Source: Globisporangium splendens (lineage: Eukaryota; Oomycota; Peronosporomycetes; Pythiales; Pythiaceae). Taken from it: a DNA stretch of 64,000 nt. Where the stretch lies: the NCBI GenBank assembly GCA_006386115.1, contig VFIW01000060.1:1-64000 (forward strand), read 5' to 3'. Positions within the stretch are counted from its first letter, which is position 1, and every line of letters starts with the position of its first letter. The notes beneath the pieces are model-generated. The model saw only the letters and a list, made by a program, of their open reading frames with translations. It made no database searches and had not been told where the DNA came from. The position numbers were made by a program, and so were the translations under genes. Shown here one piece after another: positions 3,001 to 53,176 of the stretch.

Positions 3001-4220
3001 GAGTGCCTGCTTCCATAATGGGTGAGGTCTCTACCTTAAGTGGGGGAGGGACTCTGGCTCATGGTAACAAACCGAAGTCGTCTTACGACCTGAATGCTGC
3101 TTCCGAGTTGAAAGCAAATTTCGACTCGATGAAACCCCTCGACGACATGACAAGTCGTGAAGAGCAGCAAGTCGATGACTTTATTGTGAGGTTTGTTCAA
3201 GACGCAATCGCGAAGGCTCAGGATCTGCAAAAGGAACAAGCAGACAAGAGCAGAAGGAAGAACAAGCAAGTATATAAGATCAATGATCTTGTATTACTTA
3301 GCACGGCGAACCTGCCTGAACATGCAGTGTCCAACTTGGGAAGCTCGAAGCTTCTGCCAAGGTTCATCGGACCGTTCAAGGTAGTGAAATGCAATGGTGA
3401 TGCCTACACGCTAGACATACCTACGCGCATGCGTCTACACCCGACATTTTATGTGGGTAGACTGAAGCCTTACCTTCCAAGTGGATCTGCGGATCCTACG
3501 AGATCTTCCGCAAACGATCGAGCTGATCGTGAAGCTTCTCCACTTGATTGCGAAGAGCAAACAGCTCATCGCTCTGGAGATTCTTCTCGGCGTACAGGAG
3601 TTGCAGGACGTCGAAGGATTGGTCCTTCACTGCCTCCAACGCTTGAAGACGAGAATGGTACTCACCACGAAGTACCTCGAGAGCCGAACCTGCCTCTTCC
3701 ACAGAGCACAAAAGGCGATCGTGTGCCAACTCACGAGACTTCTCGTCCTTCTGGAGTCGAACAAGTTCGTCCTGAACCTGTTGGAACCGTTCCTCGTAAC
3801 GGGACTCCAAAGCCGAACACTGGGCAGAACCTTCTGTCAGATCGTCAATCTTCAACTCGTGATCGGCGACAAGGTTCTCGAGACTCTCGCAGCGTTCCTC
3901 AAGTGTCGAACAACGCTGCTGCAAAGCCTCGATTTGCCCACGATGAGCACTCTTCCACTTCCAGAGTCGCTCAATCGTTTTCTCGTTCAGCCCCACCCCC
4001 GTTGTTAGACTCTCAGGGAGAGCATCGCTGGGTGGTTGAGTCGATTGTTGATCATCAAGATCGACCGACTCATCGTCGAGGAAAGAAGCAGTTGAACCAT
4101 CAACGCTTCTACAGAGTTCGGTGGCGTGGATATCCACCGAGCTCGGACACGTGGGAACCTCGTCAGACATTGGAGTCTGATGTTCCCGACGTGGTCCGCA
4201 GCTATGAGAACTGTTTGTAG
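3..4220 (+). CDS. pol: Protease-pol polyprotein of element A (RT, RNase H, integrase, chromodomain)
   Basis: The frame is open to the window edge, so the true start lies upstream; 27 is only a GTG. It aligns with element D just after the aspartic protease. Counting residues from position 27, the order is reverse transcriptase (YFDD near 390), RNase H (CDASD near 545), integrase HHCC zinc finger (near 775-815), the integrase D-D-E core (MDF near 841, SDRDTRF near 903, E near 944) and a C-terminal chromodomain (about 1325-1397). It copies element RNA into cDNA and integrates it; chromodomains of this class usually bind histone marks. No stop or frameshift is seen, so this copy may be functional. 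Its last 725 nt are also read by an antisense ORF. Confidence 0.93.
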   Translation, partial: EVIWAYTSVDDVSNESQACGGPSHSNDKPVKTTGGRVVRRQKKTVSFAIDEKVRDGVDKSEWKWNKHPSQQDKKKKTSKRSVSPRVLSSPDQGTSGDDEGSVQAQDIPSEFVNIAVYNEEGDVDAIRHVKIENPPSSVQELISLPSMSKKTLERSLARGDIVQVCVIVEMVDECFVNTASSADADVLDEKTRKGRFEEQSWDALKKNPVYALAREYEDIFPDKVPDELPFDRGIRHEIDVLPCTKYCITRQWPLPKEQVEAIDEFFAQRAKAGHVRESKSPHCSPTFCVKKATGGWRIVHAFNKLNDATIPAQTPVPRKDMILDGMVGSTIFSAIDLKDGFYQIRMREDDVPLTAVSTPSGMLWEWLVMPQGLKNAPATFNRMVTNVLRPLRAFAPSYFDDIFVHSKATNGKSDVDVHLDHLRQVFQVMRENKLYANLKKCMLFAPEIPVLGCFVGKSGVRVDPEKVKAIDDWPVPKNVKQLRQWLGLANYLHKHTRNYAALMQPLTQLLKKDVEWKWSKDHEMAFEEVKRSLREAPVLALPNHDKPFHVVCDASDYAIGCALMQHDDEGHERVVSYQSRQLRPAERNYPVHDKELLAMKYSLVKFRVYLLGEERFAIYTDHASLRTAVKTPHLSQRMARWFSFFAEYNFVVHCKPGKTNILADALSRRPDYDPKTKSEDTDGACRLCEDVQAIAVQATTTVREDIVEGYKSDETCQDLLKYFKDPSDKALQGLPPRTRSRAHRFRVHNGLLYYAVEDGDTARVVVPNDEGLRHRLLYEYHDSPSGGHLGREKTFLSLSRDYYWPHMYKWVRKYVRTCEICQRVKPSGSTQAPLRSLAVPSDSWKSVSMDFIFGLPRDTHGRNGILVFVDRFSKMVHLAPVSDKISAEKTAKVFVDVVFRLHGLPVEIVSDRDTRFTSKFWRALFGLLDTKLSMSTAAHPETDGQTERVNRVLEDVLRSYATSFKEWSEFLPLAEFALNNSTHVSTGHSPFYVNYGVHPRVPASIMGEVSTLSGGGTLAHGNKPKSSYDLNAASELKANFDSMKPLDDMTSREEQQVDDFIVRFVQDAIAKAQDLQKEQADKSRRKNKQVYKINDLVLLSTANLPEHAVSNLGSSKLLPRFIGPFKVVKCNGDAYTLDIPTRMRLHPTFYVGRLKPYLPSGSADPTRSSANDRADREASPLDCEEQTAHRSGDSSRRTGVAGRRRIGPSLPPTLEDENGTHHEVPREPNLPLPQSTKGDRVPTHETSRPSGVEQVRPEPVGTVPRNGTPKPNTGQNLLSDRQSSTRDRRQGSRDSRSVPQVSNNAAAKPRFAHDEHSSTSRVAQSFSRSAPPPLLDSQGEHRWVVESIVDHQDRPTHRRGKKQLNHQRFYRVRWRGYPPSSDTWEPRQTLESDVPDVVRSYENCL
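3038..3051 (+). promoter_or_regulatory. Internal polypurine tract in element A pol
   Basis: This is a 14-nt run of purines broken by one T (AAGTGGGGGAGGGA), inside pol just after the integrase core. It encodes the conserved peptide LSGGG. The same tract occurs in B (23275-23288), D (16987-17000, minus) and, with one change, C (10325-10338, minus). It resembles a central polypurine tract that could prime a second plus strand. Protein-level conservation alone could also explain it. Confidence 0.35.
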
Positions 4221-4563
4221 CGTCGCCAGGGGCGACACTACGACGACCAGAGCTACGGTTCGCTCTGTCGTCAGCGGGAGTTCTTCTTTCGGCACGAGCG
4301 TTGCCACGACGAAGAAGACGCTCCATCTTGTTCTCATTCTCAAGACGAACAAATGTTCGCCATGAGTCTCTCTGGGCTGCGATGTGTTGGTTCGGATCAT
4401 CACGATCATTGATCCGACGCCAACTGAAGAACCGCTCCTTGTAGAACTCGAGCTCCCCCTTCTTCTTCAGAATGGGAGAAATGTCAAAGAGTTCTGGAGC
4501 TGTCTGCTGTCGCTTGGACGACGGACGTTCTTCACGGTTCACTTGGTCACTTGGTCGCTTCAT
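3496..4563 (-). CDS. Antisense ORF of element A (asORF1), coiled-coil protein of unknown function
   Basis: A 355-codon ORF on the strand opposite to pol. I chose the ATG at 4563 (MKRPSDQ...); the frame stays open to an ATG at 4662 inside the LTR (388 codons). It covers all of the roughly 420 bp between the pol stop (4220) and the LTR, where pol imposes no constraint, and then overlaps 725 nt of pol. The N-terminus is basic (KRP, SSKRQ). A conserved block follows at residues 37-50 (ELEFYKERFFSWRR) and 69-86, then a Ser/Pro/Asp-rich linker, then long heptads of coiled coil (about 235-350). The same ORF is present in B and, frameshifted, in D; element C carries a related one. No function is known to me. 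Confidence 0.65.
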   Translation of the reverse strand: MKRPSDQVNREERPSSKRQQTAPELFDISPILKKKGELEFYKERFFSWRRINDRDDPNQHIAAQRDSWRTFVRLENENKMERLLRRGNARAERRTPADDRANRSSGRRSVAPGDATNSSHSCGPRREHQTPMSDEVPTCPSSVDIHATELCRSVDGSTASFLDDESVDLDDQQSTQPPSDALPESLTTGVGLNEKTIERLWKWKSAHRGQIEALQQRCSTLEERCESLENLVADHELKIDDLTEGSAQCSALESRYEERFQQVQDELVRLQKDEKSRELAHDRLLCSVEEAGSALEVLRGEYHSRLQALEAVKDQSFDVLQLLYAEKNLQSDELFALRNQVEKLHDQLDRLRKIS

Positions 4564-4639
4564 TGCCAATTGCAAAGTGAACTGCTCCGAAAGGTCTGCA
4601 AAAGTACGCAAGGTACTTGTGACTTTAAGGAGGGGATGA

Positions 4640-5291
4640 TGTAATGGGCCATAACCAGCCATTACATGAAGGTGGATCTGTTCCCAGATCTAGTGTGTCA
4701 CACGCCACCTTCAGCGTGCATTGCGGAGACACAAATAACAAAAGGGATTACGGTAATACAGTCACCACATGCACGTGTGACGTCATTCGATGACGTCACG
4801 AGTGTTCTCTGTGCTGATCAGTGCAGAATGTTGTTCTCATGTACGAATCAGTACAGAGCAATGACATCCATGTACTAATCAAGTACTGAGTGATGGTTCC
4901 TGCTTGGGAAACTGCACTGGCGACGAGACCGACGTGTCTCTGCCGCCTGGAGTGAGTGGCGCGAGCCAATCACTTTGTAGGGATTTTAAACAAGACTTGA
5001 AGTTCAAGCTTCTAGAAGATCCCGTAGGTTCAACTTCAGTGTACCCAAGGTTTTATATATCAGATTCATAGGTTTTATTGTGTATGTTTAGGTTTTAGTT
5101 ATCAAACGTGTAGGATCCCTTGGGGTTCATTAGTAAGTAGCGACAGGAACCATAACTACATTTAATTCAGTTGCAAATTTTCCTTCGGGTGCTCAAGTCT
5201 TCTTCCTCCCTCCACATCGGGAGATCGCTTCCTTCGGCACAAGCGTGTGTGCCGTGTGTTGAGGGACTGTTTGGAACAGCGCCCTCTTACA
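4640..5291 (+). repeat. 3' LTR of element A (652 bp)
   Basis: It begins TGTAATGG and ends CTTACA, giving TG...CA ends. It follows the purine tract AAGGAGGGGATGA. The first 27 bp form an inverted repeat (TGTAATGG...CCATTACA). U3 contains CACGTG (4772-4777), two TGACGTCA sites (4778-4785, 4791-4798) and three near-palindromes (4811-4824, 4841-4854, 4872-4886). A TATATA-like stretch lies near 5054. It is homologous along its length to the LTRs at 14719-15367, 21734-22382 and 24863-25511. Confidence 0.9.
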
Positions 5292-7713: not shown

Positions 7714-8100
7714 TGTAACGGGACTCGTCACACGGCGTACACGTGCGTTGAGGAAGCGCAGGTGAAAGGAAGGGAGCTTTGCGCGTTACCGTGCAAATTG
7801 AGAAGTGAATTAAAACGTTAAAGTGCTAACATGCAATCGTAGTGACTGAAACCTACGGTGTCTCTCATTGGTAGATAATCGGATGTCCATTCCGACTATC
7901 ATCCAATGGGATTAAATCTTAACGGCTTAGTCTTATTGGCTAATATGCAAATGGCTACGTACAGTGTTCATGAGTGACACATATTGATGTGTCTCCAACT
8001 GTACGACGTGGGTGGGTTCGGAAGAGGTGGTAAAACCCATGTGGGAGAAAACCCACACTCTCCTGACCCGGGAACCCATGTAATGGGAGGCCCCATTACA
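7714..8100 (-). repeat. 3' LTR of element C (387 bp)
   Basis: Read on the minus strand it starts TGTAATGGGG and ends CCCGTTACA. The first 22 bp are almost a perfect palindrome (plus-strand 8079-8100). It differs from the 5' LTR at 22555-22941 at three sites that I can see (CGTCACAC/CGTTACAC, CCATTCCG/CCAGTCCG, ATTGATG/ATTAATG). The tract CGGGGGGATGATG just before it on the minus strand is the likely plus-strand primer. Confidence 0.92.
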
Positions 8101-8311
8101 TCATCCCCCCGTAAAGCGATTGGTCACGTAGAAACGCGTACGCGGCCAATCCCTCTGGATTATTCTGTGTTCTTTGGTGTTCTTCCGTGTTCGGAGGAAC
8201 TGGTCACAGAAGGCAGAGCACTGAGTCTTGCGGGCTCAGTTCTCAGTGTGCGCCGTGCCCAACAGAGAGCTTTCCAGACGCCGCAAGCTGTGCGAGGTGA
8301 ACCTCGTACAA

Positions 8312-9922
8312 ATGTCTTCGATCGACAGTGATGCTGTTGACTACGAGTCGAGTAGCGAGGAGGTGACTCCTTGCAACACTCCAATGAGTAGCACCACGAC
8401 GACTGTCGTGCGTGACGATCGGGAGGAAGAAGCCGAGTCTTCTTCCGTTGACCGTTCGAATCTCAAACGAAACGAAGCGAAACGTTCGTCGTCCGCGGCC
8501 CTCTTGAATGAGCCTACACGGAAGAAGCGTCGTGAGGAGGGATCTCCTCACGGAGAAACGAGCGGATCCACCGTGGCGGTTGCCATTTCCGACGTCGGAG
8601 CGTCGGAAAGCGCGGCATCTGCCAACACGATGGAAAATCTCGGTCGGGAAGGATTAGCGTCAGCTGATCCCGACCTGGTGAATGTAGCGAGAAATATCCT
8701 TCTCTCGCTGGACGCGTCCAATTGTGAACTGGAAGCTGTCGATCCACTCGAGGACTTGCTCTTCGATGTGGAATCCGAATCTGATGCGCAGGTTACTGCG
8801 TTATCGGGAAATAGCGAGTTGCCACACTATCTTGCCTTTCCGGCGGAGGAGAAGGATCCGGTGACGGGTCCTTCTGAAGGGATGGATTTCGTCCCTTCTA
8901 GCTGGAGTCACTTATGGGCACCCAAACCCAATTGGGTTCGTGCACATCGCGGCACCCAGCGTGCGGGCACTCACGCGCTGTACGATGTTAGTACCATCAA
9001 GGATGATGACTTCGTCCTTCGACAGAACTTCCATCCCAAGGCGCGCGTGGAGTTTTACATCGACCTTTTCCATTCGATGCGGTATTTCGATGGTCGATCG
9101 AAGTCAAAGAAGTCTCACAGCGCTGAGAAACAAGCGCTGTTCCTTTCGCAAGCGTGGGGTGCCTTCGTTGTGAATTTCAGCGAAGACGCTGCGAAGTGTA
9201 TCTCTCGATTGCGAGATAATCGGGATAAGTTCCTCCGGCACAATGCCGTTGGAAAGTTGTTGGTGATCCACGAGGAATGCGTGGATCTTGGGGTTCCGTG
9301 TGGAGTCAAAACCACACCGAGGGGTTGCCGCATCTGCACCAGCGATGATCCTCAGTTGACTGAGGAGCACCTTCGTGGTTACAACGGCGTGATGCTTCCT
9401 TGCGGATTGCAAGATCGAATCCGCGAGTTGTGGAAGCGAGAGTCGATTAGCGTCGACTCTCGTACTGCTGCACCAAGCCAGGAACATCGGCTTGGAGCAT
9501 CGCGGCCGGTTCCCAGGTATCTCGATCTGGTGGGTAACCAAGCCAACGAACGCGATAGACGCGCTCCTTCTTCCCTCGCGACGATCGATCGCGATGAGCA
9601 AGTATCTTCTCCACGATCCAGCGTTGGTTCCCCTCGGAGTCTCGCAACGGAGGAGCTGGAGGAGGGAAGATCTGCTCGTGACTCTGAGGCGCATCCTCAG
9701 AGTGACCAGCGTCTTCTTGACCGGCTGAAGTACGCTGAGCGGGAGAACGAGGTTCTCCGACTTCGGGCCGAGCTAAGCGAGATGATCGCGAAGCACGAGC
9801 GGCTTGAGGGACGGCTTTCGAGGCTCGAGGCTGATCACAAGCTTGTGCTTGGGATCCTTCGCGACCACGGTCTCCTGAAGAGGAAGAAACCAACGAGTCA
9901 TCGTGGCGATGATACGCTTTGA
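8312..9922 (+). CDS. Antisense ORF of element C (asORF2), nuclear-like coiled-coil protein
   Basis: An intact 536-residue ORF on the strand opposite to C pol; 8312 is the first ATG (MSSIDSD). It fills the whole 1.1 kb between pol stop and LTR and then overlaps the last 476 nt of pol. The first 80 residues are acidic and Ser-rich, with a basic nuclear-localisation-like run (RKKRREE, 70-76). Residues 245-258 (RVEFYIDLFHSMRY) and W282...F285 match a block in the antisense ORF of elements A/B/D. H320, C323, C330, C339 and C342 could bind zinc. Residues about 470-525 are a leucine-rich coiled coil. The pol third codon position faces this ORF's second position, exactly as in A. Function unknown. 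Confidence 0.65.
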   Translation: MSSIDSDAVDYESSSEEVTPCNTPMSSTTTTVVRDDREEEAESSSVDRSNLKRNEAKRSSSAALLNEPTRKKRREEGSPHGETSGSTVAVAISDVGASESAASANTMENLGREGLASADPDLVNVARNILLSLDASNCELEAVDPLEDLLFDVESESDAQVTALSGNSELPHYLAFPAEEKDPVTGPSEGMDFVPSSWSHLWAPKPNWVRAHRGTQRAGTHALYDVSTIKDDDFVLRQNFHPKARVEFYIDLFHSMRYFDGRSKSKKSHSAEKQALFLSQAWGAFVVNFSEDAAKCISRLRDNRDKFLRHNAVGKLLVIHEECVDLGVPCGVKTTPRGCRICTSDDPQLTEEHLRGYNGVMLPCGLQDRIRELWKRESISVDSRTAAPSQEHRLGASRPVPRYLDLVGNQANERDRRAPSSLATIDRDEQVSSPRSSVGSPRSLATEELEEGRSARDSEAHPQSDQRLLDRLKYAERENEVLRLRAELSEMIAKHERLEGRLSRLEADHKLVLGILRDHGLLKRKKPTSHRGDDTL

Positions 9923-12900
9923 GACGCCCGACGTAGAACGTCGGGTGTAGACGCATGGTCGGGGGAAGCTCCAACTTATATGCGTCCCCAATCCCTTCAA
10001 GGACCTTGAAAGGGCCAATGTATCTTGGCAGCAACTTGTTGCTGTCACTGCTCACCACTCTGTTAGGTAGGTTAGTAGTCGATAATAAAACAAACGAATT
10101 TCGTTGAAACTCGTTCGTGTTTTTGCGGCCACTCTTATCCGCTTGTTCTTTCTGACCATCCACTGCGTCGGCGATTGAATCGCGAACGAAGCGGATGACA
10201 GCTTGCCGCTGCAACACTGTTGTAACGATGTCTTTGTCGGCGATCGCCGCATGAGCAGTTGCCTGCCCATGATGGTGCGAGATCTCCGCGCTCTTCGCTT
10301 GTTCCGAAGCAGCTGCTTCGCGGACTCCTCCCCCACTCAAAGGAGACGTCACCAACGGAGGGGACATCCCACCGAGGATGGACGGAACACGTGGGTGCCT
10401 GAGGGCGTTCACGTAGAATGGCGTGTGCCCGGTTGAGGCATGCACAGAGTTGTTGATTGCAAACTCTGCGAGAGGGAGACATTCATTCCAGTGAGTGAAT
10501 GAATGCGCATAGCTGCGCAGAATATCCTCGAGCGTGCGATTTACACGCTCGGTTTGACCATCTGTCTGCGGATGATCAGCTGTCGACATCTTGAGCTGAG
10601 TGCCCAAGAGTCGGAACAACTCTTGCCAGAAGGCAGCTGCGAATCGTGGATCTCGGTCCGACACGATTTCAGTGGGCATTCCGTGTAACCTAAACACAGA
10701 ATCCAGGAATATCTGCGCCGTCTGCTTTGCGGTGACGCTAGCAGGGACAGCACTGAGATGGGCCATCTTACTGAAGCGATCCACGATGACGAGGATGCCA
10801 GTCTTCTTGCTGGAGTCAGCAGGAAGACCGAAGATGAAGTCCATCGAGACTGACTTCCAACAGTCCGTCGGGACTGGTAGTGATCGCAGCGGTGCGTTGG
10901 TCACCGGTGCTGGCTTGACGCGCTGGCAAACCTCGCATGCGCGCACGTATTTGCGGACCCACTTGTATTGGTGGGACCAATAGAAGTCGCGGGAAAGCGC
11001 GAGATACGTTTTCTCGCGTCCTGGATGGCCGCGGAAAGGCGCATCGTGGTACTCGAAGGGCACACGATTGCGAAGGTCACTATCGTTTGGAACGACAGCG
11101 CGTGGCTCGTCGCTGTCATCTATACGGTAGTAGAGAACATCGTTGCGCATCTCGTAACGATGTAGACGAGCGCGTTGAGCCGGATCCAACGCCTTGAGCG
11201 ACTTATCAGACGGGCCTGACAAGTGGGCAACAAGTCGGCTGATGTCGCTATCTGTCGCATACGCTCTTTGATATCGTCGAGGAGCGACGATGTCGGCGTG
11301 CTTTCTCGTGTGATTGCCATCACACGGTCTTCCTTTGAGTCGTTTGCTTTCGACTCAAAGTCTGGGCGACGTGATAATGCATCCGCGATCACATTGAATC
11401 GTCCGGGTTTGTACTCGACGTCAAACTCGTACTCCGCAAAGAAAGAAAGCCATCGGGCCATTCTTTGCGACAGATGTGGCGACTCCACTGCGGTGCAGAG
11501 CGAAGCGTGGTCAGTGTAAACGGTGAACCGTTTACTTCCGAGCAAATACACTCTGAACTTCGTAAGAGCGTACTTCATGGCAAGCAACTCCTTGTCATGA
11601 ACCGAATAATTGCACTCAGCTGGCTTCAGCTGACGCGACTGATAGCAGATCACGCGTTCTCGATCTGCATCGTCGCGCTGCATGAGCGCGCATCCGATTG
11701 CAAAGTCGGATGCACCACAGACCACACAGAATGGTCGCTCGTGATCGGCGATCGCGAGAGCCAGAGTTTCCATGAGGCTGCGTTTCGCCTTGACGAATGC
11801 ATCTTGACATTCGTCGGACCACTTCCAGTCGACGTCTTTCTTCAGTAATGATGAAAGAGGTCGGATGATACCCGCATAGTTCTGCGAGTACTTATGGAGA
11901 TACGTCGCAAGACCGAGGAACTTGCGAAGATCCTTTTGGCTTGTTGGAACTGGCCAATCGTTGATCGCCTTGATCTTTTCGGGATCAGGACGCACTCCGT
12001 TCTTGCCGACAAAGCAACCGAGAACGGGGATCTCATCAACACCAAACATACACTATTGTATGTTGGCGTACAGCTTGTACTTCCGCATCAAGTCCAATAG
12101 CCGTCGGAGGTGCTCTTTGTGCACTTCCACATCGGATGCAGCATCCGATGCACGACTGTGTATGAACACGTCGTCGAAATAGCTTGGTGCGAAGTCTTGC
12201 ACTGGACGTAATAGTTGCGTGACGCATCTATTGAACGTGGCGGGAGCATTTGTTAGCCCCTGTGGCATTACGAGCCACTCCCACAGCATCCCACTCGGGG
12301 TGCTGACTGCTGTGAAAGGGACATCCTTTTCACGCATCAAGATTTGATAGAACCCATCTCTCAAATCGATCGTACTAAAGATAGCACTACCTTGCATGCT
12401 GTCAATGATGACATCTTTGCGAGGTATCGGCGTTTGCGCCGGGATTGTTGCCGCATTCAACTTGTTGAACGCATGCACGATCATCCAACCTCCTGTGGCC
12501 TTTTTCACACAGAAGGTGGGGCTGCAGTGCGGAGAATTCGACTCGCGCACTTGTCTTGCTTTACGACGAGCTTCAAAGAACTCGTCGATCACCTTGACTT
12601 GTTCGCGAGGCAGTGGCCATTGCTTCGTGACGCAGTACTTTGTTCCCGGCTTGAGATTAATCTCATGCCGAACTCCTTTGTCTGTCGGAAGACGACTGGG
12701 AACTTCTTCTGGGAATACGTCTTCGTACTCCTTCAATAGTCCGTAGAATGGACTGTCCTTCAGGGATTCCCATCCCTGAGCCTGAAATCGTTTCTTCTTC
12801 GTTGGCTCGTCGAGCACATCAGTGTCCATCACTGATGACAACGCAAGGAAACATTCATCGAGTGGGTGCCTCTGCACTGCCGACTCGGCATTGCTCGATT

Positions 12901-13796
12901 CCTGAGGAGCAATGTAACAAATCTGCTCGAGGGTGCCTCGATGCAGTTCTTTCATGAACCGTTTCTGGCTCATGACGGGTAGCGTTACCACTTCCGAAGC
13001 GTCCTTCGGAGGGTCTTCTGACGCCATCTCATGAATATGAGATTCATCCTCATCAGTGACCATGACACTGATGACTTCGCACGAGGAGCCTTGATCAGAG
13101 GTCTCCATTGGCGGTACCTTTCCTTCGTCATCGCTCTTCAGTACAGAGCGATGAGTAACCGAAGTCTGTCCTTTAGACTTTCGAGGGGCTTCTCCATCTA
13201 GCATCGTGCTAAGGGGGCCATCGCACACCCATGCATCATGTTCGTTAACCGACAGCGCGTTGCGCGCCGACGCGCGGTTAGCCTTGTTCCGCTTCATAGC
13301 GGGGTAACTGATCGATTGTTGATTCCAATCGATGATCGGCTGATACTTCTTCAGCCATGGCATTCCAAGGATGACATCGAACTTGTCATCTAAATCCAGC
13401 CAAATGAAGTCTCCTTCCATTTGGCGTCCGTCATGCGTGACATGAAGCCGTGTCACATGTTTCTCCGTCGTGACGGTGGCACCTGTTGCCAACCGCACGG
13501 TGATCTTCGACTCGGAGGAACGTGATTCCTCCGAAATTACTTTCGCTAGCTCACGGGCGACATGCGATCGAACAAAGTTGTTCGACACACCCGTGTCTAG
13601 CAGTGCCCGCAGGGATCGTAAGTCCCTCTGCGGTCATCTCAAGTTGGATGAGTCGATCTCTCGACTCATCCGCAGTCGTGGTTGTCCAGCAGCGTGTATC
13701 AGACACGCTGGGGGCTTGCGTCTCGTGCACCACGATCGCACCAGACGCATATTCGCCAGTAGAGCGCCCCGCGTCTACTGGTGGTTGTCGTTTTTT
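9447..13796 (-). pseudogene. pol: Element C protease-pol (degenerate), with chromodomain
   Basis: This is the -1 frame relative to gag, entered at the slippery site 13790-13796. The order is a proline-rich leader, aspartic protease (DTGVS near 13595), RT (SYFDD), RNase H (CGASD where A has CDASD), integrase zinc finger and D-D-E core, and a C-terminal chromodomain ending at 9447. Damage: a one-base frameshift near 13630, just before the protease active site; TAG at 12050-12052 replacing a Lys codon after RT; a one-base frameshift near 11250 between RNase H and integrase. The integrase-chromodomain part (11222-9447) is open throughout. Confidence 0.9.
13756..13796 (-). promoter_or_regulatory. 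-1 ribosomal frameshift signal, element C gag/pro
   Basis: On the minus strand the heptamer A AAA AAC (13796-13790) sits in the gag frame as TCA-AAA-AAC. An 8-nt spacer follows, then a perfect 8-bp hairpin, CCAGTAGA (13781-13774) with TCTACTGG (13763-13756), and a 10-nt G-rich loop. The gag stop TAG (13777-13775) lies inside the 5' arm. A -1 slip continues into the protease frame (IKKRQPPVDAG). Geometry matches element D. Confidence 0.85.
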
Positions 13797-14718
13797 GATT
13801 TTGGACGCGAAGAAGTCGTCCGATGTGTTTCTCGGACGCGGGGAGCGGGCTGCGCCGCTCGGCACTCGTATTGAAAGTGCCCCAGTTTCTGGCAGCGGTG
13901 GCAATGCTGCTTGCGCTTGTCGACGGGTCTCTTCGGAGCCGCCGAAGCTTGAACCAACGAGAGATCCATTGGTTCGGATCCACTGTAACGTGGAGGAGGT
14001 CTCGCGTGCCGGAACTGCGCGGCGCGGTAAGGGAACGCGTAAAGCCGTGCTTGCTTCGCGCTAAAGTCTTCCTGAAGCGCCAGAGCGATTGCTTGCTCTA
14101 GCGTTTCCGGGTATTCCCGGAACAGGTAGGTCTTGACGGGACCATCCACCAAACATTTCATGAACGTGGCGACGCAAGTCGCCATGTCGATTGGCTCAGA
14201 CACGATACTTGATACCAAGTATCGGGCATGCTGGATATACACGTGGAGATCGCGTTTATCCTGTCGGATTTCGAGAAATTCCGTGCGAGTACGGAATTCC
14301 GACTTTGGTGGCTCAAAGGCGGCACGGATGTCGCCTTTAAACACCGAAAGTGTGGAGAAACAACCATGGTCGGCCATTCGGCGACCAAATGCCCAGCTCT
14401 TGACTCTCCCAGCGAGCTTGGACATCGCGAAATCGACCTGTTGCTCCGGATCGTAGATTTGTCCGGAGCGAATGGCGGCATCGATTTCGACGAACCATCA
14501 GAGGAGAGGCTCATTGTCTCCTCCGCCATACTTCGCGACTTCAAGCCTCACAGGCTTTTGTTGTGGGAACTGTACCTGCGCAGGAGCTGCGCGGGTTGCT
14601 TCTCTTCCACGGTCTTCTGCCTCTTTCTGCAGGAACCCGATCGCCGTGAGGCGATGTTGATCCTGCGACAGGGTGGCAAGGATGGCGAACACGGCCTTTT
14701 CGCCGATGATCGTCCTCA
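13775..14718 (-). pseudogene. gag: Element C gag, 3' part, split by element D
   Basis: This continues the gag N-terminal piece at 22504-22383 after removal of D: ...QRM joins RTIIGEK..., matching the unbroken gag of D (ERM-RDVIGEA). An in-frame TGA at 14498-14500 (L-L-stop-WFVE, where D has LSRWFVE) breaks it. Downstream come the capsid-like segment (FAMSKLAGRVKSWAFG) and a CCHC zinc knuckle (CHRCQKLGHFQYEC). It ends ...KNDNHQ at 13775, just after the frameshift site. Confidence 0.88.
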
Positions 14719-15443: not shown

Positions 15444-16389
15444 ATGAAGCGACCAAGTGACCAAGTGAACCGTGAAGAACGTCCGTCGTCCAATCGACAG
15501 CGGACAGCGGACAGCTCCAGAACTCCTTGACATTTCTCCCATTCTGAAGAAGAAGGGGGAGCTCGAGTTCTACAAGGAGCGGTTCTTCAGTTGGCGTCGG
15601 ACCAACGATCGCGATGATCCCAACCAACACACCGCAGCCCAGAGAGACTCATGGCGAACATTTGTTCGTCTTGAGAATGAGAACAAGATGGAGCGTCTCC
15701 TTCGTCGTGGCAATGCTCGTGCCGAAAGAAGAACTCCCGCTGACGACAGAGCGAACCGTAGCTCTGGTCGTCGTAGTGTCCCCCCTGGTGACGCTACAAG
15801 CAGTTCTCATAGCTGCGGACCACGTCGGGAACATCAGACTCCAATGTCTGACGAGGCTCCCACGTGTCCGAGCTCGGTGGATATCCACGCCACCGAACTC
15901 TGTAGAAGCGTTGATGGTTCAACTGCTTCTTTCCCCGACGATGAGTCGGTCGATCTTCATGATCAACAATCGACTCAACCACCCAGCGATGCTCTCCCTG
16001 AGAGTCTAATAACGGGGGTGGGGCTGAACGAGAAAACGATTGAGCGACTCTGGAAGTGGAAGAGTGCTCACCGTGGGCAAATCGAGGCTTTGCAGCAGCG
16101 TTGTTCGACACTTGAGGAACGCTGCGAGAGTCTCGAGAACCTTGTCGCCGATCACGAGTTGAAGATTGACGATCTGACAGAAGGTTCTGCCCAGTGTTCG
16201 GCTTTGGAGTCCCGTTACGAGGAACGGTTCCAACAGGTTCAGGACGAACTTGTTCGACTCCGGAAGAACGAGAAGTCTCGTGAGGTGCACCACGATCGGC
16301 CTTTTGAGCTCGTGGAAGATGGAAAGGTTCGGCTTCTCGATGGTAATTCGTGTGAGTACCCTTCTCGTCGTCAAGCGTGGAGGCAGTGA
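15444..16389 (+). pseudogene. Antisense ORF of element D (asORF1), frameshifted
   Basis: This is the counterpart of the antisense ORFs of A and B, again opposite the pol 3' end. It starts with the same MKRPSDQ at 15444 but is broken near 15500 by an extra 7-bp copy of agcggac, a tandem duplication (cagcggac repeated). Reading resumes in another frame from 15472 and is open to 16389. There it departs from A/B in the coiled coil (RKNEKSREVHHD...), in the same zone where pol of D has decayed. The C-terminal about 45 residues of A/B are lost. Confidence 0.75.
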
Positions 16390-29045: not shown

Positions 29046-29995
29046 GTTGGGACCAAATCACAAAGTGAAGCAAACAGAATGCAGAATGGCGAGTTGCTAC
29101 TGCGGTTTATCAAATAAGTACGAAATTGAATCGAGTACAGTATGCTACTAACTAAGTGCGAGTGCTGATGAATCGAACCGAATGTTGCTGCAATGTTCTC
29201 TGTGGGAGTGATGGTCTTCACACCTTCAATGTGCAACTTGGTTTAATCAGATTCGAGTTTATTGATAAAACCCAGTTTTTGCAGCATTGGATGGAGTGAC
29301 ACAGTGAAGGTCATTGTGATTGGGTCCGTTTCATTGACAGACGCTCGTGAAAATGCACTCACTCCCAGCAAAATGGACACTCGTTGAGCGACACAGTGCT
29401 GAGTTCCTTAGCCTGACAAATTGAAAATGATGGAAAATATCCTGTCAGAGGCGTATCTAAAGTTGTATCCCGAACGGCTCATGCGCAACTATCGTCCTTA
29501 CGGCACGCACACAGCGACTAACGGGAGCAGTATCAGCTTTTGCCGTTTTGGGAATGTCTTTATTGAACAGTAGTCCAGTTTTACGTCTTGTGAAGCGTGG
29601 TCTGCAGAAGTTCGTATTAAAAAACAGCAAAACCTGATTTTGACTCGATCACAAATCTGGTTTTTCTGTTAAATTGACAGAACAATATCCGGGATCCTCA
29701 CACTTATCTCCACACATCAACATTCCTTCAGAGAGAGCAAAGTCGGCCAATTGTTGAGAGAGAAATGCTGTCAAGCAGTGAGGAATCAGGTTTGTCTGTG
29801 AGTTTGTGTGGTGGGTACAAATGAGTGATGGATAGTGATGAAAAATGGAATCTGCCAGTTGTTACATGAGGGTGTGTGTGTCTTCGCTCAAAGATTTCCC
29901 CTTCATCTTGCAACCTTCAACTGGTGGTTCCCCTGTTTCTGCCAACATTCAGTTGCTCAATCGGGGGTGCCGCGCGTTTCTTCCCGTTGCAGAAT
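29046..29995. other. Divergent intergenic region between ASCC2-like gene and Argonaute
   Basis: About 950 bp with no convincing gene on either strand. It must hold both promoters. A plus-strand frame open from 29835 joins the Argonaute frame but is judged 5' leader, because an initiator-like element lies downstream of it (29996). Confidence 0.5.
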
Positions 29996-30011
29996 GCTCA
30001 CTTTCGTTTTC
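29996..30011 (+). promoter_or_regulatory. Oomycete-type initiator upstream of Argonaute
   Basis: GCTCACTTTCGTTTTC resembles the oomycete core promoter (GCTCATT...CA-T/A-TTT, followed by a C-rich flank). It lies 70 nt upstream of the ATG at 30081. It supports starting the protein at 30081 rather than at 29835. Confidence 0.5.
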
Positions 30012-30080
30012 TCCCCCTGCTCGCAGAGGCCAGAGGAAAAGGGAAACTTCAAGTGCACGCGCCTAAGAAGGAGGAAGAAG

Positions 30081-32933
30081 ATGAGTTCGCGTGGCGGACG
30101 GGGACACGGCGGACGCGATGGCAGCCGTGGCGCTGGTTCAGCTCGCGGTCGCGGCAGCGCGGCTCCAGGAAGAGGAGGCGGTCGCGGCGCTGCGGCGCCA
30201 GGAAGAGGAGGCGGTCGCGGGACGTCGGCCGGCGCTGCTGCGCCTTGGGGAGGAAACCGAGGAGCTCCACCTGCGCCACCTTCTGCTCCGCCATCGACGG
30301 CTCCGCCACCTGCACCGGCTCGTGCAGCGCCTCCAGCTCAAGTCGACACGCTGGGATCGGAACTTGAAGAAAAGCTGGATCTCGCGGCGTTTTCTGATCC
30401 ATCGTCGACTCAACTTGTGACGCCGACGGTGCAGATGCATTTCCCACCACGACCGGGATTTGGCCGTGCGGGAACGCCTGTCAAGATTTTGGCGAACCAT
30501 TTCCAAGTGAATTTCAACCCGCGCGGAGACGTGTACCACTACGACGTCGCGTTTGCTGAGAATGGGAATAAATTCTCGAACGATGGACCGCCGAAGACGC
30601 TCGCTGCGAAGATCATGCAATCGCTTGTGGCCCAGATGAAGCGCGAGTTCCCAAGCGTCTGCATTGTGTCGGACGGCCGTAAAAATCTCTACTCGCCGAG
30701 TCGTCTTCCATTTGAAGAACAAGAGTTTACGGGTCTGAAGCTTGCTGACGAAGATCGACCAAAGGAGTACTCTGCTGTGGTGAAGGAAGCCGATCCTGTT
30801 GCGATTCGCATGGAACAATTGAATGAGCTGTTTGCGGGTAATTTGAACTACACTCCTCAAGATGCTCTCCAAGCTCTCGACATCGCGATGCGTCACACTG
30901 CGTCAACGAGATTCACTGTCGTGGGCCGGAACTTATTTGGTAGTGCTGGCAAGAAGGACATTGGCGAAGGAGCCGACGTGTGGTTTGGCTATTTCCAAAG
31001 TCTTCGCGCTACGCAAAGCAAGTTAGTGTTGAATCTTGACCTCGCGGCGACGGCATTTGTCAAGAACATGAGTGCGATCGATTACGTTCGCGAGACGCTG
31101 GGGCTCCACGACCTCCCTACAAGCCTCAACAGGTATCAGCATGGCGCTTTCAACAAAGCGATCAGTGGTGTGAAGGTGGAGATCACGCATCGTCCGGGTG
31201 TTCGCCGCGCGTACCGAGTAAACAAGCTCTCCACCAATGGAGCAGACCAAACTTTTTTCCAAGATGACAATGGAAATCGTGTCTCCATTCAGTCGTACTT
31301 CGCGTCGACGTACAACTTGCGCCTTAGGTACCCTCGCCTTCCGTGTCTCCATGTGGGTGCACGGGACAAGGGATGTTACTTGCCGATCGAAGTGTGCAAC
31401 ATCATGGCGGGACAGAAATGCCCTCGCAAAGCAACGGACACCCAGGTTGCGAACATGATCAGGTTCACGTGCACGAACCCACAGGATCGTAAGCGTTCCA
31501 TTGAGACCAAGTTTCGTGAGGCAGGCTTTGATCGCGACCCGACACTGCAAGCGTTCGGACTGAATGTGAACTCGAAGATGGTCGAGATGCAAGGACGACT
31601 TTTGGCTCCTCCGAACATGGCCTACAAAAACGGAACCATTCGTCCAGACACTGGTGTGTGGAACATGAAGGGGAAATCCTTCTTCCAAGCTGCGAAATTG
31701 AACTCGTGGTCTGTGATCAGCTGCTGTGATCCTCGCCGAAACCCAATGTCCGACATGGAGAAGTTCTTTCGTGCTGTGATTTCTCAAATGGGACAGCTCG
31801 GCATGGATCCACCGAAAAATCTCCCTCCCATCATTGTGAAGCCGCGGAATGAATCTGTCCGTCGGGCATTTGACGAAGCCATTCGCGCTGCGACGTCGAC
31901 TTTTGGTGTGAAGCCTCAAATCGTGTGGGTGATCAACCCGACGACTGATGCGACTGCGTATGGTGATCTCAAGCGTGCGTCTGACACGGAACTGGGAGTT
32001 GTGTCGCAGTGTATGCTTGCGAAACATATCCAAAAATGCAACCCGCAATATATCGCCAACATTTTGCAAAAGGTGAACACGAAACTTGGAGGCAAGAATG
32101 CGGTCATTGCGGAGAACCTTCCGAAGCTTGGTCGCGGCACGATTGTGTTTGGTGCTGACGTGACGCACCCAAGTCCAATGGACCGCACGCGTCCCTCAGT
32201 CGCTGCCGTGGTGGCGTCGATGGACCAGAACTTCATTAAGCACGCTGCGAGCATTCGTGCGCAAGGTCACCGTGTGGAACAGATTACGAATCTGAAAGAT
32301 ATGGTTGTCGATCTAATGAAGCGATTCTATCGCGAGACGCGTTCGAAGCCCGAGCGTATCGTATTCTACCGTGACGGTGTCAGTGAAGGTCAGTTCCGCA
32401 TGGTTCTCAACCACGAAGTCACTGCGATCCGCGAAGCATGTGCGACTCTGGAGAAAGGATACATGCCTCCGATCACGTTCATCATTGTGCAGAAGCGTCA
32501 CAACACGCGTCTTTTTCCGAGTGATCCAAAAACTGGCGATCGCAGTGGCAATGTGAAAGCCGGGACGGTTGTCGACCGTGCGATTTGCCATCCTGTGGAG
32601 AACGACTTTTACTTGATGAGCCACGCCGGATTGCAAGGAACGAGTCGCCCGACTCACTACCACGTGTTGCTCGATGAGATCGGCTTCACAGCTGACGAAA
32701 TTCAAGGGATCACGTACAAGCTGTGCTACACGTTTGCGCGCTGCACGCGCTCTGTGTCGATGGTGCCGTCTGCGTACTACTCGCACTTGGTCGCATTCCG
32801 TGCTCGCTTTTTCCAGCTGGATGGTAGCGACACTGCATCGATGCGTTCGGGCTCGAGCGAGTCAGGCTACGACGTGGATACGCGCATGCTGGAGGTCCAC
32901 GATGCCCTGAAGCAAGTGATGTTTTACGTGTGA
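30081..32933 (+). CDS. AGO1: Argonaute (Ago) protein with intact slicer residues
   Basis: A 950-residue single-exon gene starting MSSRGGRGHGG. The first about 90 residues are GRG/RGG repeats and Pro/Ala-rich. N and L1 domains follow, then PAZ (about 350-480), MID and PIWI (about 640-950). The four catalytic residues are all present: D693 in GADVTHP, E733 in RVEQI, D765 in YRDGVSEGQ and H902 in YYSHLVAFRAR. It should bind small RNAs and be able to cut targets. GRG repeats in Argonautes are often methylated docking sites. I call it Ago1-clade by the GRG N-terminus, which is an inference. The longer frame from 29835 is judged untranslated leader. Confidence 0.95.
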   Translation: MSSRGGRGHGGRDGSRGAGSARGRGSAAPGRGGGRGAAAPGRGGGRGTSAGAAAPWGGNRGAPPAPPSAPPSTAPPPAPARAAPPAQVDTLGSELEEKLDLAAFSDPSSTQLVTPTVQMHFPPRPGFGRAGTPVKILANHFQVNFNPRGDVYHYDVAFAENGNKFSNDGPPKTLAAKIMQSLVAQMKREFPSVCIVSDGRKNLYSPSRLPFEEQEFTGLKLADEDRPKEYSAVVKEADPVAIRMEQLNELFAGNLNYTPQDALQALDIAMRHTASTRFTVVGRNLFGSAGKKDIGEGADVWFGYFQSLRATQSKLVLNLDLAATAFVKNMSAIDYVRETLGLHDLPTSLNRYQHGAFNKAISGVKVEITHRPGVRRAYRVNKLSTNGADQTFFQDDNGNRVSIQSYFASTYNLRLRYPRLPCLHVGARDKGCYLPIEVCNIMAGQKCPRKATDTQVANMIRFTCTNPQDRKRSIETKFREAGFDRDPTLQAFGLNVNSKMVEMQGRLLAPPNMAYKNGTIRPDTGVWNMKGKSFFQAAKLNSWSVISCCDPRRNPMSDMEKFFRAVISQMGQLGMDPPKNLPPIIVKPRNESVRRAFDEAIRAATSTFGVKPQIVWVINPTTDATAYGDLKRASDTELGVVSQCMLAKHIQKCNPQYIANILQKVNTKLGGKNAVIAENLPKLGRGTIVFGADVTHPSPMDRTRPSVAAVVASMDQNFIKHAASIRAQGHRVEQITNLKDMVVDLMKRFYRETRSKPERIVFYRDGVSEGQFRMVLNHEVTAIREACATLEKGYMPPITFIIVQKRHNTRLFPSDPKTGDRSGNVKAGTVVDRAICHPVENDFYLMSHAGLQGTSRPTHYHVLLDEIGFTADEIQGITYKLCYTFARCTRSVSMVPSAYYSHLVAFRARFFQLDGSDTASMRSGSSESGYDVDTRMLEVHDALKQVMFYV

Positions 32934-39194: not shown

Positions 39195-42100
39195 TTAATG
39201 GCTACCAATTGGTGTCGCAACCGGTTGGAACGCTGATGGCAGCTGCAATTTGAGGCGCTTCTTGCTCCAAAAGCCCTGGCTCGTCTCCTTGGCTGGCATG
39301 AGCACCCCGGTCCACGCCGCCACGTTGAACTTCATCTTCATGCTCAGCGCTCGCTCGGTGTCGGCTTCTTTGGTCTTTTGGTCGCGTTCTTCGCGCAACT
39401 TCATGGCCCGAGCGATCTCGAGTTTCTGGAGCTTTCGGCGGCTGCGAGCCTCGGCTTCGCGAAGCGCGTCGTCCGTGGCAGCAACGGCGGTGCGTCTCCG
39501 CTTCTCCGATCGCGCGATTTCTTCTTCGCGACGAGCACGTTTCCGACGCTTTTCTTCGGCTTTGCGCTCCGATTTGTTCATGCGGTCGACATTCTGGCGA
39601 TTCACGATCGAGAGTTTCACACGCGTCGACATATCTGGCGATTCATCCCGAGACGCAAGTCCACTGCTGGAACTCGCCGCGACCGTTGCAGCAGCGAGAA
39701 CAGTATCTGATGAAGCTGCAGATGAGGATGGTGCACTGGAAGGTTGAGCTGGACGCGCGCGGTCTCGATCAGCCACGAGATGAATTTTGATTGGAACCGG
39801 TTCGCTGGCACTGGAACTCGATTTCTTCGAGGGCTCGCCTTCAGCTCGCTTGCGCTCCTTCTCCAATCTCTTTTCGCTCGGCTTCTTCTTCTCACCCAAC
39901 CGTTCTCGTTCCTTCCGCAACATATCCTTGCGGCGCAATCGTTCCACTACTTCGAGGGTCGCATCGCTCCATAGATCCTCCGCCACGTTCAGCATGTGGA
40001 TCGCCGCAGCGTAGACACTCCAACCCTCCCGGTCCTTGTCTGCCTTGTTATACAGAATTGCATTTTCAAACACCAAACGCACATCGCGGATGAAATCACC
40101 ATGCAGCTTGTACTCGAACACCGCCACTTTCTCACCAATCGTTGCCAGATCCATAGGGTTCTTGATGATATCGAAGTATTCGGCTGCCAATGTTGGGAAC
40201 AACACTTTCACGGGCTTTCGGAAAGGCCAGCAGTTTTTGTCGTACTTTTGACTGTTGAGAACGCGCAAAAGCTTGAGACACTCTTTCGGTTTGATATCCA
40301 TGGGCACACTCTTGACGATTTCCGCTCGCTCATGTCGAAGCGCTTTTTGCTTCACTTTGTCACTGTCAGACTCGACTAAATTGAGCTCCGCGCACAGAGA
40401 ATCAAAGTACCACTGCAAATGGGTTGACATTTCACGGACATGGAGAGACGCTGGATCGTTCGCACAGTTGAACTTGATCGCATTCTGGAAAATCAAACGG
40501 CCCTTACGGATGAATTCCTTTACCGTGAGCGTGTGAGCATGCAGCTGTTCGCGAAGCGTTCGAAGATCCATCGGCTCGGCAATGAGTCTCGTATACTCGG
40601 TGGCGAGTTGCGGGAAAATCTCGAGCAACGGTTGATCGAAATGCAATTTTGAGACCTGCTCGATCTTCGTCAGTCGGTTTAGCACTCGTTCACACGACGA
40701 TTCCCACGAGTTCAGATCGCTTTTCTTGCTCTTTTTGCTTTTCTTGCTTGAAGAACTTGACGCTGATGCCCTCTGCAATTCAGCAGCAGACAATTTCGAA
40801 CCAACTGAAGTCTTTACAGGAGATGGTAAAGGAGCAGGAGGCGGCTTCGCAATAGCCGTACTCGTTACTGGAGCAGGCGGTAGCGGTGCAGCAGGCAACG
40901 CATCCGGTTTCTTTACCGCTGGAGTGGCTCCTACCGATGTGGCGCCTTCACTGACCTTCATGACAGCATCTGGTGCAGATTGGTCCGAGCTCTTCTCCTT
41001 CTTGTCCTTTTTCTCCTTCTTCTTTTCTTTCTTCTTCTTCTTTTCCTTCTTCTCCTTCTTCTTCTCTTTCTTCTCCTTCTTCTCCCTCTTGCGCTTCAAT
41101 TCGTCAGCTTCAAGAGACGATGTTGGTTTTGGAACGAGCTCTTTGCTGCTGGTAGTGACTGCAGTTTCTGGTTTTACCTGACCAGACGATACAGTTGAAG
41201 ACGAAGTTTTAGACTCAACAGGAGCAGCATCTTTAGGACGTGATTCTTTCTGAATAATCGAAGTGGCTGACACAGAACTCTCTGGTTTGACAGCACTGCG
41301 CGCAGTGGTGACACTCGCACTCGCAGGTACAGGTACCGCAGCGACTTGCTGCTTCTTCTCAATATCTCGAGCAGAAACTGATGTACTTGGTACAGATTCA
41401 GCGGACCTTTTCGTTGGTGATCGAGATGGTGCTCTTTCTTTTTTCGGTTCGGATGTGGATACCGAGTTAGGTTTCGGCGCCGAACGAACCTTGGTTTCTG
41501 CAGCAGCTTCTACTTTCAACGGTGCAGCAGGGGGTAAAGCTTGCAGTGCTTCATGCACTGCCGGCTTTTCTTCGATAGCCTTCACTGTGGCTGCATTTCC
41601 ATCGAGGTGCCTCAACTTTTCGTTGTACAGCTCAACAAAGTAGTCCCGTAGGCTGCTCGCCATCGCTCGGATGTCAGCACCTTCAATGGGGTCGCTGTTG
41701 TATTTGTGACAATTGGAGAAAATCAAATGCACATCTGCACTGAACTCGCTAGCGCTCCCATACCGATCACCCTTCAGCTTGCGCTCGATCTTTGCAAAGT
41801 CCATTGGCTCAGCAATGATTTTCAAATAATCAGGATACTTGGTCGTATCGACAGCATGAAGGAACGGGCCAGCAGTCAAAATGTCCACGCCTCGATATCC
41901 TTTCATCTTGTGCGCACGTAGTTGCTTCAGAATGCCCAAACAAATCTCTTTTTCAAGGAAGCTACCAGAAGACGACTTGGACGATTTCTTCTTACTTCTT
42001 TCTTCCGCGACTGGAACTTGCAGTGCAGCTGAAGCGGCTGACGATGAACTCGAGGAACGATGGCTTTTCGACGATGACGAAGAGGAAGATTTGTGTTTTT

Positions 42101-49986: not shown

Positions 49987-51240
49987 ATGAAGAGCTTTGT
50001 CGTCGCGTTTGTCGCGGGCGTCACAGCCTTGGTGGCGTCTGTGTTGGCCAACGAGCACCCTTACACGTTGCCGCAGTTCCCAGCAGGGGATCCAATCCCA
50101 GCCGATACCTCGGTCACGTCCAAGTTGCTCGGACTCGCAGCCGTGACGCCTCAAGCCACGTTAAACTTCCAGGCCAAATTGGACGGCATCTACATGAATG
50201 GCGCGCCGTTCACGTTCAAAGGTGCCAACTACTTTGGCATGGAAGGCGACATCCTCGTGCCTCATGGGCTCTGGGGAGGTGGTGAGTCAACGACCATCCA
50301 GAAGATCGCGACGTACCTCAAGGCCAACAACTTCAACGCTGTGCGTCTCCCTTTCGCCGTCGATGCCGTGTTGCAGAACAAGGTCGTGGATCGCACCAAG
50401 ATCATCAACGAAGCCGCGCTGCAGACGTCGTTCAACGGCAAGACGCTGTACTACTTGGACGTCATGGACTACACGATCAGCATCTTCGCGGCGAACAAGA
50501 TCGTCGTGCTTTTGGACGCTCACGTGTTGTACCAAAACGGCGGCATCGGAGCCTTGTGGTACACCAACGATGCTGACAAGAACAACTTCGAGAACGCGTG
50601 GAAGATCTTGGCGACGCGCTACAAGAACACGTGGAACGTGATCGGTGCCGACCTCAAGAACGAGCCCCACGATAGTGCATCCTGGGGAAGCAACAACACG
50701 GCCAACGACTGGCGCCTCGCCTCGTCGCAGTGGGCCAAGAGCATCCTGAGTATCACCCCACGTTGGTTGATCTTTATCGAGGGCATGCAGTACTCGAGCC
50801 GCGACCAAGCTGCTTACCCTTGCTTTTGGGGAGAGAACCTCATGGACTTGCAGCGCGCTAACTTGACGCTGCCAGTCACGGAGCGGCTCGTGTACAGCCC
50901 TCACGTCTACGGTCCAAACGTTGCATACCAGTCGTACTTCTCGGCCTCCAACTATCCGAACAACATGCCTGCGATCTGGGACCTGCACTTTGGCTTTGTG
51001 CACAAGAAGTACGGCCCGATCGTCATGGGCGAGTGGGGTGGCAAGTACCGTGATGATGCTGACAAGAAGTGGCAGGACCGCTTCGCGGCGTACCTCAAGG
51101 AGAAAGGTTTGGGCTACTTCTACTGGAGCTTGAACCCCAACTCGGGCGATACCGAGGGTCTCTTGGAGAACGACTGGAACACGCCTCGCTACGACAAGTT
51201 GACGATGCTCTCGGGCATCAAGGGGACCCCGATCCCATAA
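49987..51240 (+). CDS. Secreted GH5 glycoside hydrolase (cellulase-like), copy 1
   Basis: 417 residues, no intron. A signal peptide occupies about residues 1-21 (MKSFVVAFVAGVTALVASVLA). The GH5 barrel follows, with KGANYFGMEG, NNFNAVRLPF and ALWYT. The general acid/base is E226 in DLKNEP and the nucleophile E349 in GEWGG. The C-terminus is LLENDWNTPRYDK. Enzymes of this family usually cleave beta-1,4-glucans or mannans; the exact substrate cannot be read from the sequence. Oomycetes use such enzymes on their own cellulosic wall or on plant walls. Two paralogues lie within 5 kb. Confidence 0.93.
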   Translation: MKSFVVAFVAGVTALVASVLANEHPYTLPQFPAGDPIPADTSVTSKLLGLAAVTPQATLNFQAKLDGIYMNGAPFTFKGANYFGMEGDILVPHGLWGGGESTTIQKIATYLKANNFNAVRLPFAVDAVLQNKVVDRTKIINEAALQTSFNGKTLYYLDVMDYTISIFAANKIVVLLDAHVLYQNGGIGALWYTNDADKNNFENAWKILATRYKNTWNVIGADLKNEPHDSASWGSNNTANDWRLASSQWAKSILSITPRWLIFIEGMQYSSRDQAAYPCFWGENLMDLQRANLTLPVTERLVYSPHVYGPNVAYQSYFSASNYPNNMPAIWDLHFGFVHKKYGPIVMGEWGGKYRDDADKKWQDRFAAYLKEKGLGYFYWSLNPNSGDTEGLLENDWNTPRYDKLTMLSGIKGTPIP

Positions 51241-51278
51241 GCAAGTGGTGGAGTTGAGTGTGCGTGTGCTCAGGTGAA

Positions 51279-51304
51279 AGAGAGAGAGAGAGAGAGAGAG
51301 AGAG
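51279..51304. repeat. (AG)n microsatellite
   Basis: About 26 bp of alternating A and G just after the first GH5 gene, probably in its 3' untranslated region. Confidence 0.95.
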
Positions 51305-53098: not shown

Positions 53099-53114
53099 TC
53101 ATTTCTCCAACTTC
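53099..53114 (+). promoter_or_regulatory. Initiator-like element of the second GH5 gene
   Basis: TCATTTCTCCAACTTC, partly matching the oomycete Inr, lies 63 nt upstream of the ATG at 53177. Confidence 0.45.
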
Positions 53115-53176
53115 ATTTTCCAACTCGCCTTCAAACGAACAAAGGAATATAAGAAACAGCAAAGACTACGTCAGCA

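Follow-up and report, generated by a model that had tools for sequence, protein, structure and literature searches.

Purifying selection on an antisense open reading frame that alternates with the 3' end of pol in Ty3/Gypsy chromodomain elements of the oomycete Globisporangium splendens

Antisense accessory genes of LTR retrotransposons have been described mainly from plants. HBZ of HTLV is an antisense coiled-coil regulator on the 3' LTR side, and in 2011 Zhao et al. reportedly described brtn of Boty-like retrotransposons. In the parts of the literature covered, an HTLV antisense promoter is located inside the 3' LTR (PMC7264820), and brtn is presented as an antisense additional gene of a Boty-like retrotransposon in Botrytis cinerea (PMC7264820, PMC8365987). 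The same sources, in the parts covered, describe the plant aORF-3R genes (Grande gene23, RIRE2, Retand ORF4/TRP28, and PvRetro13) as lying antisense between pol and the 3' LTR (PMC7264820), with many conserved copies and suspected nuclear or DNA-binding roles (PMC7264820, PMC11963269), which the review calls undetermined (PMC7264820). Such ORFs, antisense and located between pol and the 3' LTR, are already known from plants and Botrytis. A non-exhaustive literature search returned no oomycete antisense-ORF case on point. Here we describe a multicopy case, asORF2, from an element of the oomycete Globisporangium splendens; within the literature searched, its oomycete host, its protein family, and its interleaving with the SH3-chromodomain end of pol are new.

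The stretch studied (the window, 64,000 nt) belongs to a 53.3-Mb genome, which was also searched. The carrier, element C, lies on the minus strand, and asORF2 runs antisense to the 3' end of its pol ORF:

About 7714–8101, minus strand: 3' LTR of element C (98.7% identity to the LTR copy in L061)
8312–9922, plus strand: asORF2, proposed antisense accessory gene of element C, 536 codons (ATG at 8312, stop at 9922)
8519–8539, plus strand: basic run RKKRREE, residues 70–76, nuclear-localisation-like by inspection
8897–9346, plus strand: constrained central domain, residues 196–345, W......G...LYD..[FY]Y[IV]DLF...W..FV...
9269–9337, plus strand: H-C-C-C motif, H320-x9-C330-x8-C339-x2-C342, putative zinc site (14-row alignment)
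9452–9619, plus strand: asORF2 linker facing the pol chromodomain, with no constraint on the asORF frame
9695–9865, plus strand: predicted asORF2 coiled coil, residues 462–518, facing the pol spacer between SH3 and chromodomain (AlphaFold2)
9447–11222, minus strand: pol 3' ORF with H2C2, integrase core, SH3_Tf2-1, and chromodomain (Pfam)
About 9453–9620, minus strand: chromodomain in pol (Pfam)
About 9909–10094, minus strand: SH3_Tf2-1 in pol (Pfam)
11120–12049, minus strand: pol ORF piece lying between reverse transcriptase (RT) and integrase, taken as the RNase H region from its position and by eye
12053–13588, minus strand: pol ORF piece with protease and RT (Pfam)
13775–14425, minus strand: gag remnant with a CCHC knuckle (Pfam, below curated cut-offs)

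Along the minus strand, element C consists of a gag remnant and protease/RT (Pfam), a piece assigned to RNase H by position, and then integrase, SH3, and chromodomain (Pfam), and gag-pol of the window copy is broken into several ORFs. It is placed among the Ty3/Gypsy chromodomain elements by RT, integrase, SH3, and a C-terminal chromodomain (Pfam); a more complete relative at C23 has both LTRs, 99.0% identical across 391 bp, and the window copy has one. Homology to the C23 copy ends at ~14719, just short of the neighbour's LTR, and a 5' LTR was looked for in the window and not found. The first-pass annotation had credited element C with LTRs different from those of element A; one LTR is indeed present at about 7714–8101, and the second is missing from the window. 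The intact antisense ORF and its RKKRREE run are as that annotation described them. Antisense on the 3' LTR side like the plant aORF-3R genes, asORF2 starts ~210 bp from the inner edge of that LTR; residues 1–378 lie outside pol, into which the remaining 158 codons reach. M1-S2-S3 are nearly invariant among relatives, and so are K71 and K72 (alignment A3).

Other parts of the window carry an Argonaute protein with N, PAZ, Mid, and Piwi domains (29835–32933, plus strand; Piwi E 9e-103), a 1597-aa ORF with six bromodomain stretches (39195–43988, minus strand), a cluster of three GH5 cellulase-type ORFs, two on the plus and one on the minus strand (49987–55870), and retroelement ORFs that encode RNase H, with or without RT (56779–60414, plus strand; 61699–63258, minus strand).

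In element A, of another Gypsy family, the antisense ORF is asORF1:

3496–4662, minus strand: asORF1 of element A, 388 codons
23719–24885, minus strand: second intact asORF1 copy
15472–16389, plus strand: shortened asORF1 copy in an inverted neighbouring element

M34, at 4563, is the better candidate for its conserved start, because relatives begin at MKR and the first ATG, judged by eye, seems to lie within LTR-end sequence.

A six-frame genome search gave 81 scored matches to asORF2 from 130 candidates and 106 to asORF1 from 499, both being lower bounds, and DNA was extracted for the best 30 of the 81 and the best 30 of the 106 places. The frame is without a stop in 21 of the 25 near-full-length, best-scoring asORF2 copies (L001–L026 minus L023), a choice of best matches that favours intact copies; the remaining five frames hold 5 to 36 stops each. 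In protein databases asORF2 found 13 proteins, every one named G. splendens, and asORF1 found 80, down to about 43% identity, 18 of them from non-NCBI sources. Pairwise pN/pS values were pooled, for asORF2 from 28 copies (L001–L029 minus L023; the partial L030 was excluded) and for asORF1 from 30 (L031–L060). Outside pol the ratio was 0.45 for asORF2 and 0.30 for asORF1. Of the control frames, the two shifted sense ones and two of the three antisense ones gave 0.82–1.52; in the remaining antisense frame, where wobble positions coincide, the value was 0.45–0.49, as expected. The plant aORF-3R pattern, an ORF that most copies carry and whose protein is conserved, recurs here as far as the matches, the open best-scoring copies, and pN/pS show.

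Constraint was then resolved per module (pN/pS, w, with codon bootstrap intervals that are approximate, since copies share ancestry). Residues 1–190 of asORF2 are weakly constrained (0.75, CI 0.52–1.13), and the domain has a value of 0.25 (0.17–0.36). Opposite the chromodomain, asORF2 shows 1.02 (0.56–2.40) against 0.25 (0.11–0.49) for pol, whereas opposite the spacer (residues 437–532) asORF2 shows 0.35 (0.23–0.55) against 0.81 (0.53–1.30) for pol. The 21 closest copies gave 0.36 for residues 190–378, 0.28 against 1.18 in pol for the spacer, and 1.03 against 0.29 in pol for the chromodomain stretch. The pol integrase stretch of the same elements had a pN/pS of 0.32 (19 of 26 copies; seven with more than two in-frame stops were dropped), so the central (0.25–0.36) and coiled-coil (0.28–0.35) parts of asORF2 are constrained about as strongly as integrase. 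In asORF1, the domain gave 0.19 (0.07–0.47) and the stretch facing the spacer 0.19 (0.12–0.33) against 1.26 (0.70–2.80) in pol; facing the chromodomain, the values were 0.43 (0.18–1.13) and 0.47 (0.20–1.64) in pol, with wide intervals. Therefore, both strands code and take turns, pol being free where the coil is constrained and asORF2 being free where the chromodomain is constrained, an instance in nature of overlapping genes that divide the burden of constraint between them. The copies are best protein matches, which can lower pN across the asORF frame, though not selectively outside the chromodomain stretch, and such sampling alone would not yield the free stretch facing the chromodomain.

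This codon-level selection points to a protein function. With 81 matches, 21 of the 25 best-scoring copies open, and the frame under purifying selection, the antisense gene is confirmed as more than a chance ORF. The first-pass view of an old antisense gene with a function is supported by this selection and by the profile homology described below.

The two antisense proteins contain the motif pair RVEFYIDLFHSMRY / ELEFYKERFFSWRR and a following W..F (W282 in asORF2, W101 in asORF1), both as first proposed. Single-sequence BLAST between them is weak (E 0.086 for the domain). Their C-terminal likeness was set aside as proof of homology, as it falls where both overlap related pol in the same frame; it is not independent, and homology was therefore retested on the non-overlapping parts. 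Profile-profile comparison, the test named beforehand, did not overturn it: on non-overlapping residues, hhalign scored 32.2 (probability 63.5%), and the highest score among 500 column-shuffled controls was 23.2. The whole non-overlapping parts scored 31.4 (29%), the 14-row family profile 43.8 (92%) against 22.6 in 150 shuffles, and stand-alone rows only (relatives of the domain discussed below) 37.1 (81%) against 20.5 in 150 shuffles. When the 14-row profile was run against 1438 stretches (the window and L061–L075), seven true members came out on top, followed by five asORF1-type stretches (E 0.003, 0.0055, 0.015, 0.017, and 0.063; the next stretch had 0.33); the asORF1-type stretch of L064 was absent among the matches listed. 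The homologous region, which spans some 65 residues and lies clear of the pol overlap, has pairwise hhalign E-values from 7e-7 to 6e-4, and its common segment reads L[YF]D.S.I...EFY...F...R.......W..FV. By profile, these results support homology between the asORF2 and asORF1 domains. The idea of conservation across the two families stands for a domain shared outside the pol overlap; it needs refining in that asORF1 is without the His/Cys half and the domain also occurs in non-antisense ORFs.

The W..F is kept in all rows of the 14-row family alignment, four of which are asORF2 rows. All five residues of the His/Cys cluster first noted in asORF2 are present, and H320, C330, C339, and C342 are widely kept (counterparts in 13, 14, 14, and 13 rows), but C323 has counterparts in only 5 of the 14 rows. 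Judged from these residues, zinc binding cannot be general in the family, because asORF1 is without the His/Cys half and the relative L065 is without the H and last C of the motif. Structure prediction had been proposed for both domains. It gave confident helices in residues 61–120 of asORF1 (block-mean pLDDT 83–91), followed by a low-confidence linker and a long helix at 222–387 that we take as a coiled coil. In asORF2, the domain stayed below a pLDDT of 50 in AlphaFold2 and only the coil was confident: the C-terminal coiled coil, expected from the first reading, is modelled at residues 462–518 (block-mean pLDDT 68–88). Both proteins have N-terminal basic runs. No Pfam match to asORF2 or asORF1 fell below E 0.05, PDB sequence searches returned coiled coils only and otherwise E above 0.06, and of the 33 Foldseek matches that the asORF1 model had at E up to 10, none reached 0.001.

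Further Gypsy relatives were found via the pol C terminus, and seven stretches were fetched. An old gene should have counterparts in other close families, and antisense ORFs were found in L062–L064 (asORF1-type), L065 (an asORF2 relative in two pieces), L066–L068, and L071. The last, at C151, is an asORF2 relative open over 596 codons counted stop to stop, and the strand opposite it matches a chromodomain weakly. Family matches to asORF2 had E-values of 2e-24 (L071), 7e-22 (L065), and 8e-16 (L072); as queries, L065 found 85 places, asORF2 copies among them, and L067 found 86. At the level of sequence, the asORF2 domain is thus shown to be homologous to antisense ORF domains of two more Gypsy families, L065 and L071, and the alignment extends it to L069, L072–L074, and P0097–P0100. 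In the L066–L068 family (C145, C10, C151), the antisense ORF, about 510 aa long and in two pieces in L068, follows the same plan but shows no detectable homology to the domain (hhalign probability below 1%). Its non-overlapping part is under purifying selection, with a pN/pS of 0.51–0.58 in three of three pairs, which are not independent, with controls at 1.02–1.63; over the overlap as a whole, the asORF gave 0.70–0.91 and pol 0.46–0.59, and module-wise constraint was not evident. In families A, C, L065, L071, and L066–L068, the antisense frame, checked by hand, is in the same register to pol, with first codon positions facing, and the ORF stops near the SH3 end (SH3 being Pfam-confirmed in A, C, and L067 only). 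The module order is alike in relatives.

We consider it rather probable, on the strength of these comparisons, that asORF2 is a real protein-coding accessory gene that regulates its element from the strand opposite to gag-pol. Its mRNA would begin in or just inside the 3' LTR, which would act as an antisense promoter, because asORF2 starts only about 210 bp from the LTR inner edge. A pattern that we take to be the oomycete initiator motif, used for the promoter search, had four matches in the window at one mismatch (chance mean 1.79), none of them on the asORF2 strand near its start, a point against this reading. The protein would multimerise via the coiled coil and, on the basis of the basic runs, enter the nucleus, where the domain would bind nucleic acid or chromatin, perhaps with zinc at the H-C-C-C motif, and it would regulate expression or integration of its own element. 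The extra antisense gene very probably makes a working protein, for which a multimeric nuclear regulator of the element seems the likeliest role.

The domain also has relatives beyond the antisense position, which makes its origin (capture or release) and function addressable. Low-copy ORFs with the domain occur at C125/C117, C175, C63/C130, C71, C162, C15, and C173:636568, and four stand-alone ORFs that were inspected (L069, L072, L073, and L074) have no chromodomain opposite by eye. Further relatives (P0097, P0099, P0101, and P0102) come from non-NCBI (metagenome) sources. In the 14-row tree, asORF2, L065, and L071 form a group (98/98) separate from the stand-alone ORFs. A second tree, enlarged by ten asORF1 rows, still unites the stand-alone rows (98/96) but resolves asORF2 less well; both trees are unrooted, with long branches flagged. 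The stand-alone ORFs might be host genes, in which case the element, having captured or sharing a cellular gene, would use its protein to imitate or inhibit a chromatin or silencing factor of the host. The low-copy ORFs, some of which have a coil and stay open across 337–608 aa, the metagenome relatives, and the parting of antisense and stand-alone forms in the tree would fit such a capture. However, several of the places are broken or near repeats, the four inspected have little flank, the flagged trees leave the direction unpolarised, and the stand-alone ORFs may themselves be domesticated or orphaned element genes, so we regard capture as rather unlikely.

A LINE ORF1 origin was also considered for the stand-alone form, as the L069 ORF precedes an endonuclease-RT element in the same direction, and was rejected by DNA search. 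The LINE starts about 190 bp past the L069 ORF, 38 of the 40 listed DNA matches begin at query base 208, inside the LINE, and among the matches listed only C125 and C117, which are 98% identical, have ORF and LINE together. At L069-L070 (C125:311200-316800), a LINE inserted downstream of a stand-alone relative thus mimics an ORF1-ORF2 arrangement. Downstream of the stand-alone relative L074, an ORF that looks transposase- or HTH-like by eye starts at L075:745-1299 on the plus strand.

The coil lies 36–57 residues past the Cys motif in seven stand-alone rows, versus 120–163 in five antisense rows (crude heptad score, self-chosen threshold; two rows gave no coil); four asORF1 rows gave 119–131 counted from the W..F, as they are without the Cys motif, and are not comparable. 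The spacing looks as though an older gene had received the chromodomain DNA in its linker, or had been freed from it. An ancient antisense gene could predate the split of the Gypsy families, its modules alternating with those of pol, and could partner the chromodomain-integrase end and so steer integration, a reading we find doubtful.

Two other explanations are less probable still. Antisense RNA rather than protein might matter, with dsRNA formed with pol mRNA feeding or evading RNA silencing. The window does contain an Argonaute gene, and the plant aORF review, in the part covered, raises the possibility (PMC7264820). However, pairing leaves unexplained both the low nonsynonymous change of the asORF frame in non-overlapping DNA and the conservation of the H-C-C-C residues across families; selection readable per strand and per module argues that protein, not RNA alone, matters. 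We therefore judge an RNA-only reading improbable, and an antisense RNA effect may add to the role of the protein. Similarly improbable is a structural or assembly role, in which the coiled-coil protein would be a component of the particle or integration complex encoded on the opposite strand: its integrase-like constraint suggests importance for transposition, but an antisense origin would uncouple its dosage from that of gag-pol, and Pfam found no gag-like domain in the asORF proteins.

A chance ORF, kept open because the facing pol lacks reverse-complement stops, is hardly credible: although the open overlap by itself is weak evidence for asORF2, because it stays open in 644 of 4000 synonymous pol shuffles (about 16%), the asORF1 overlap does so in only 2 of 4000, residues 1–378 are open outside pol, and the asORF frame is selected there, with pN/pS well below 1, as well as opposite the relaxed spacer.

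The preferred reading, an accessory gene regulating its element, draws on the analogy with plant aORF-3R proteins, for which such a role has been proposed (PMC7264820, PMC11963269). By position, asORF2 resembles the plant aORF-3R genes: it occupies the strand opposite gag-pol on the 3' LTR side of pol, and like them it is multicopy and conserved. It differs from them in its host and in having no TRP28 domain, as PF04195 (Retand TRP28) was absent from Pfam scans of asORF2, asORF1, the L065 piece, and L067. The asORFs moreover overlap pol by 158–241 codons with reciprocal constraint, which is not described in the aORF-3R literature as far as covered. Going by its description, brtn is likewise an antisense extra gene of a microbial retrotransposon. 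HBZ of HTLV belongs to a different element class and, through its position and coil, offers a comparison for how asORF2 might work.
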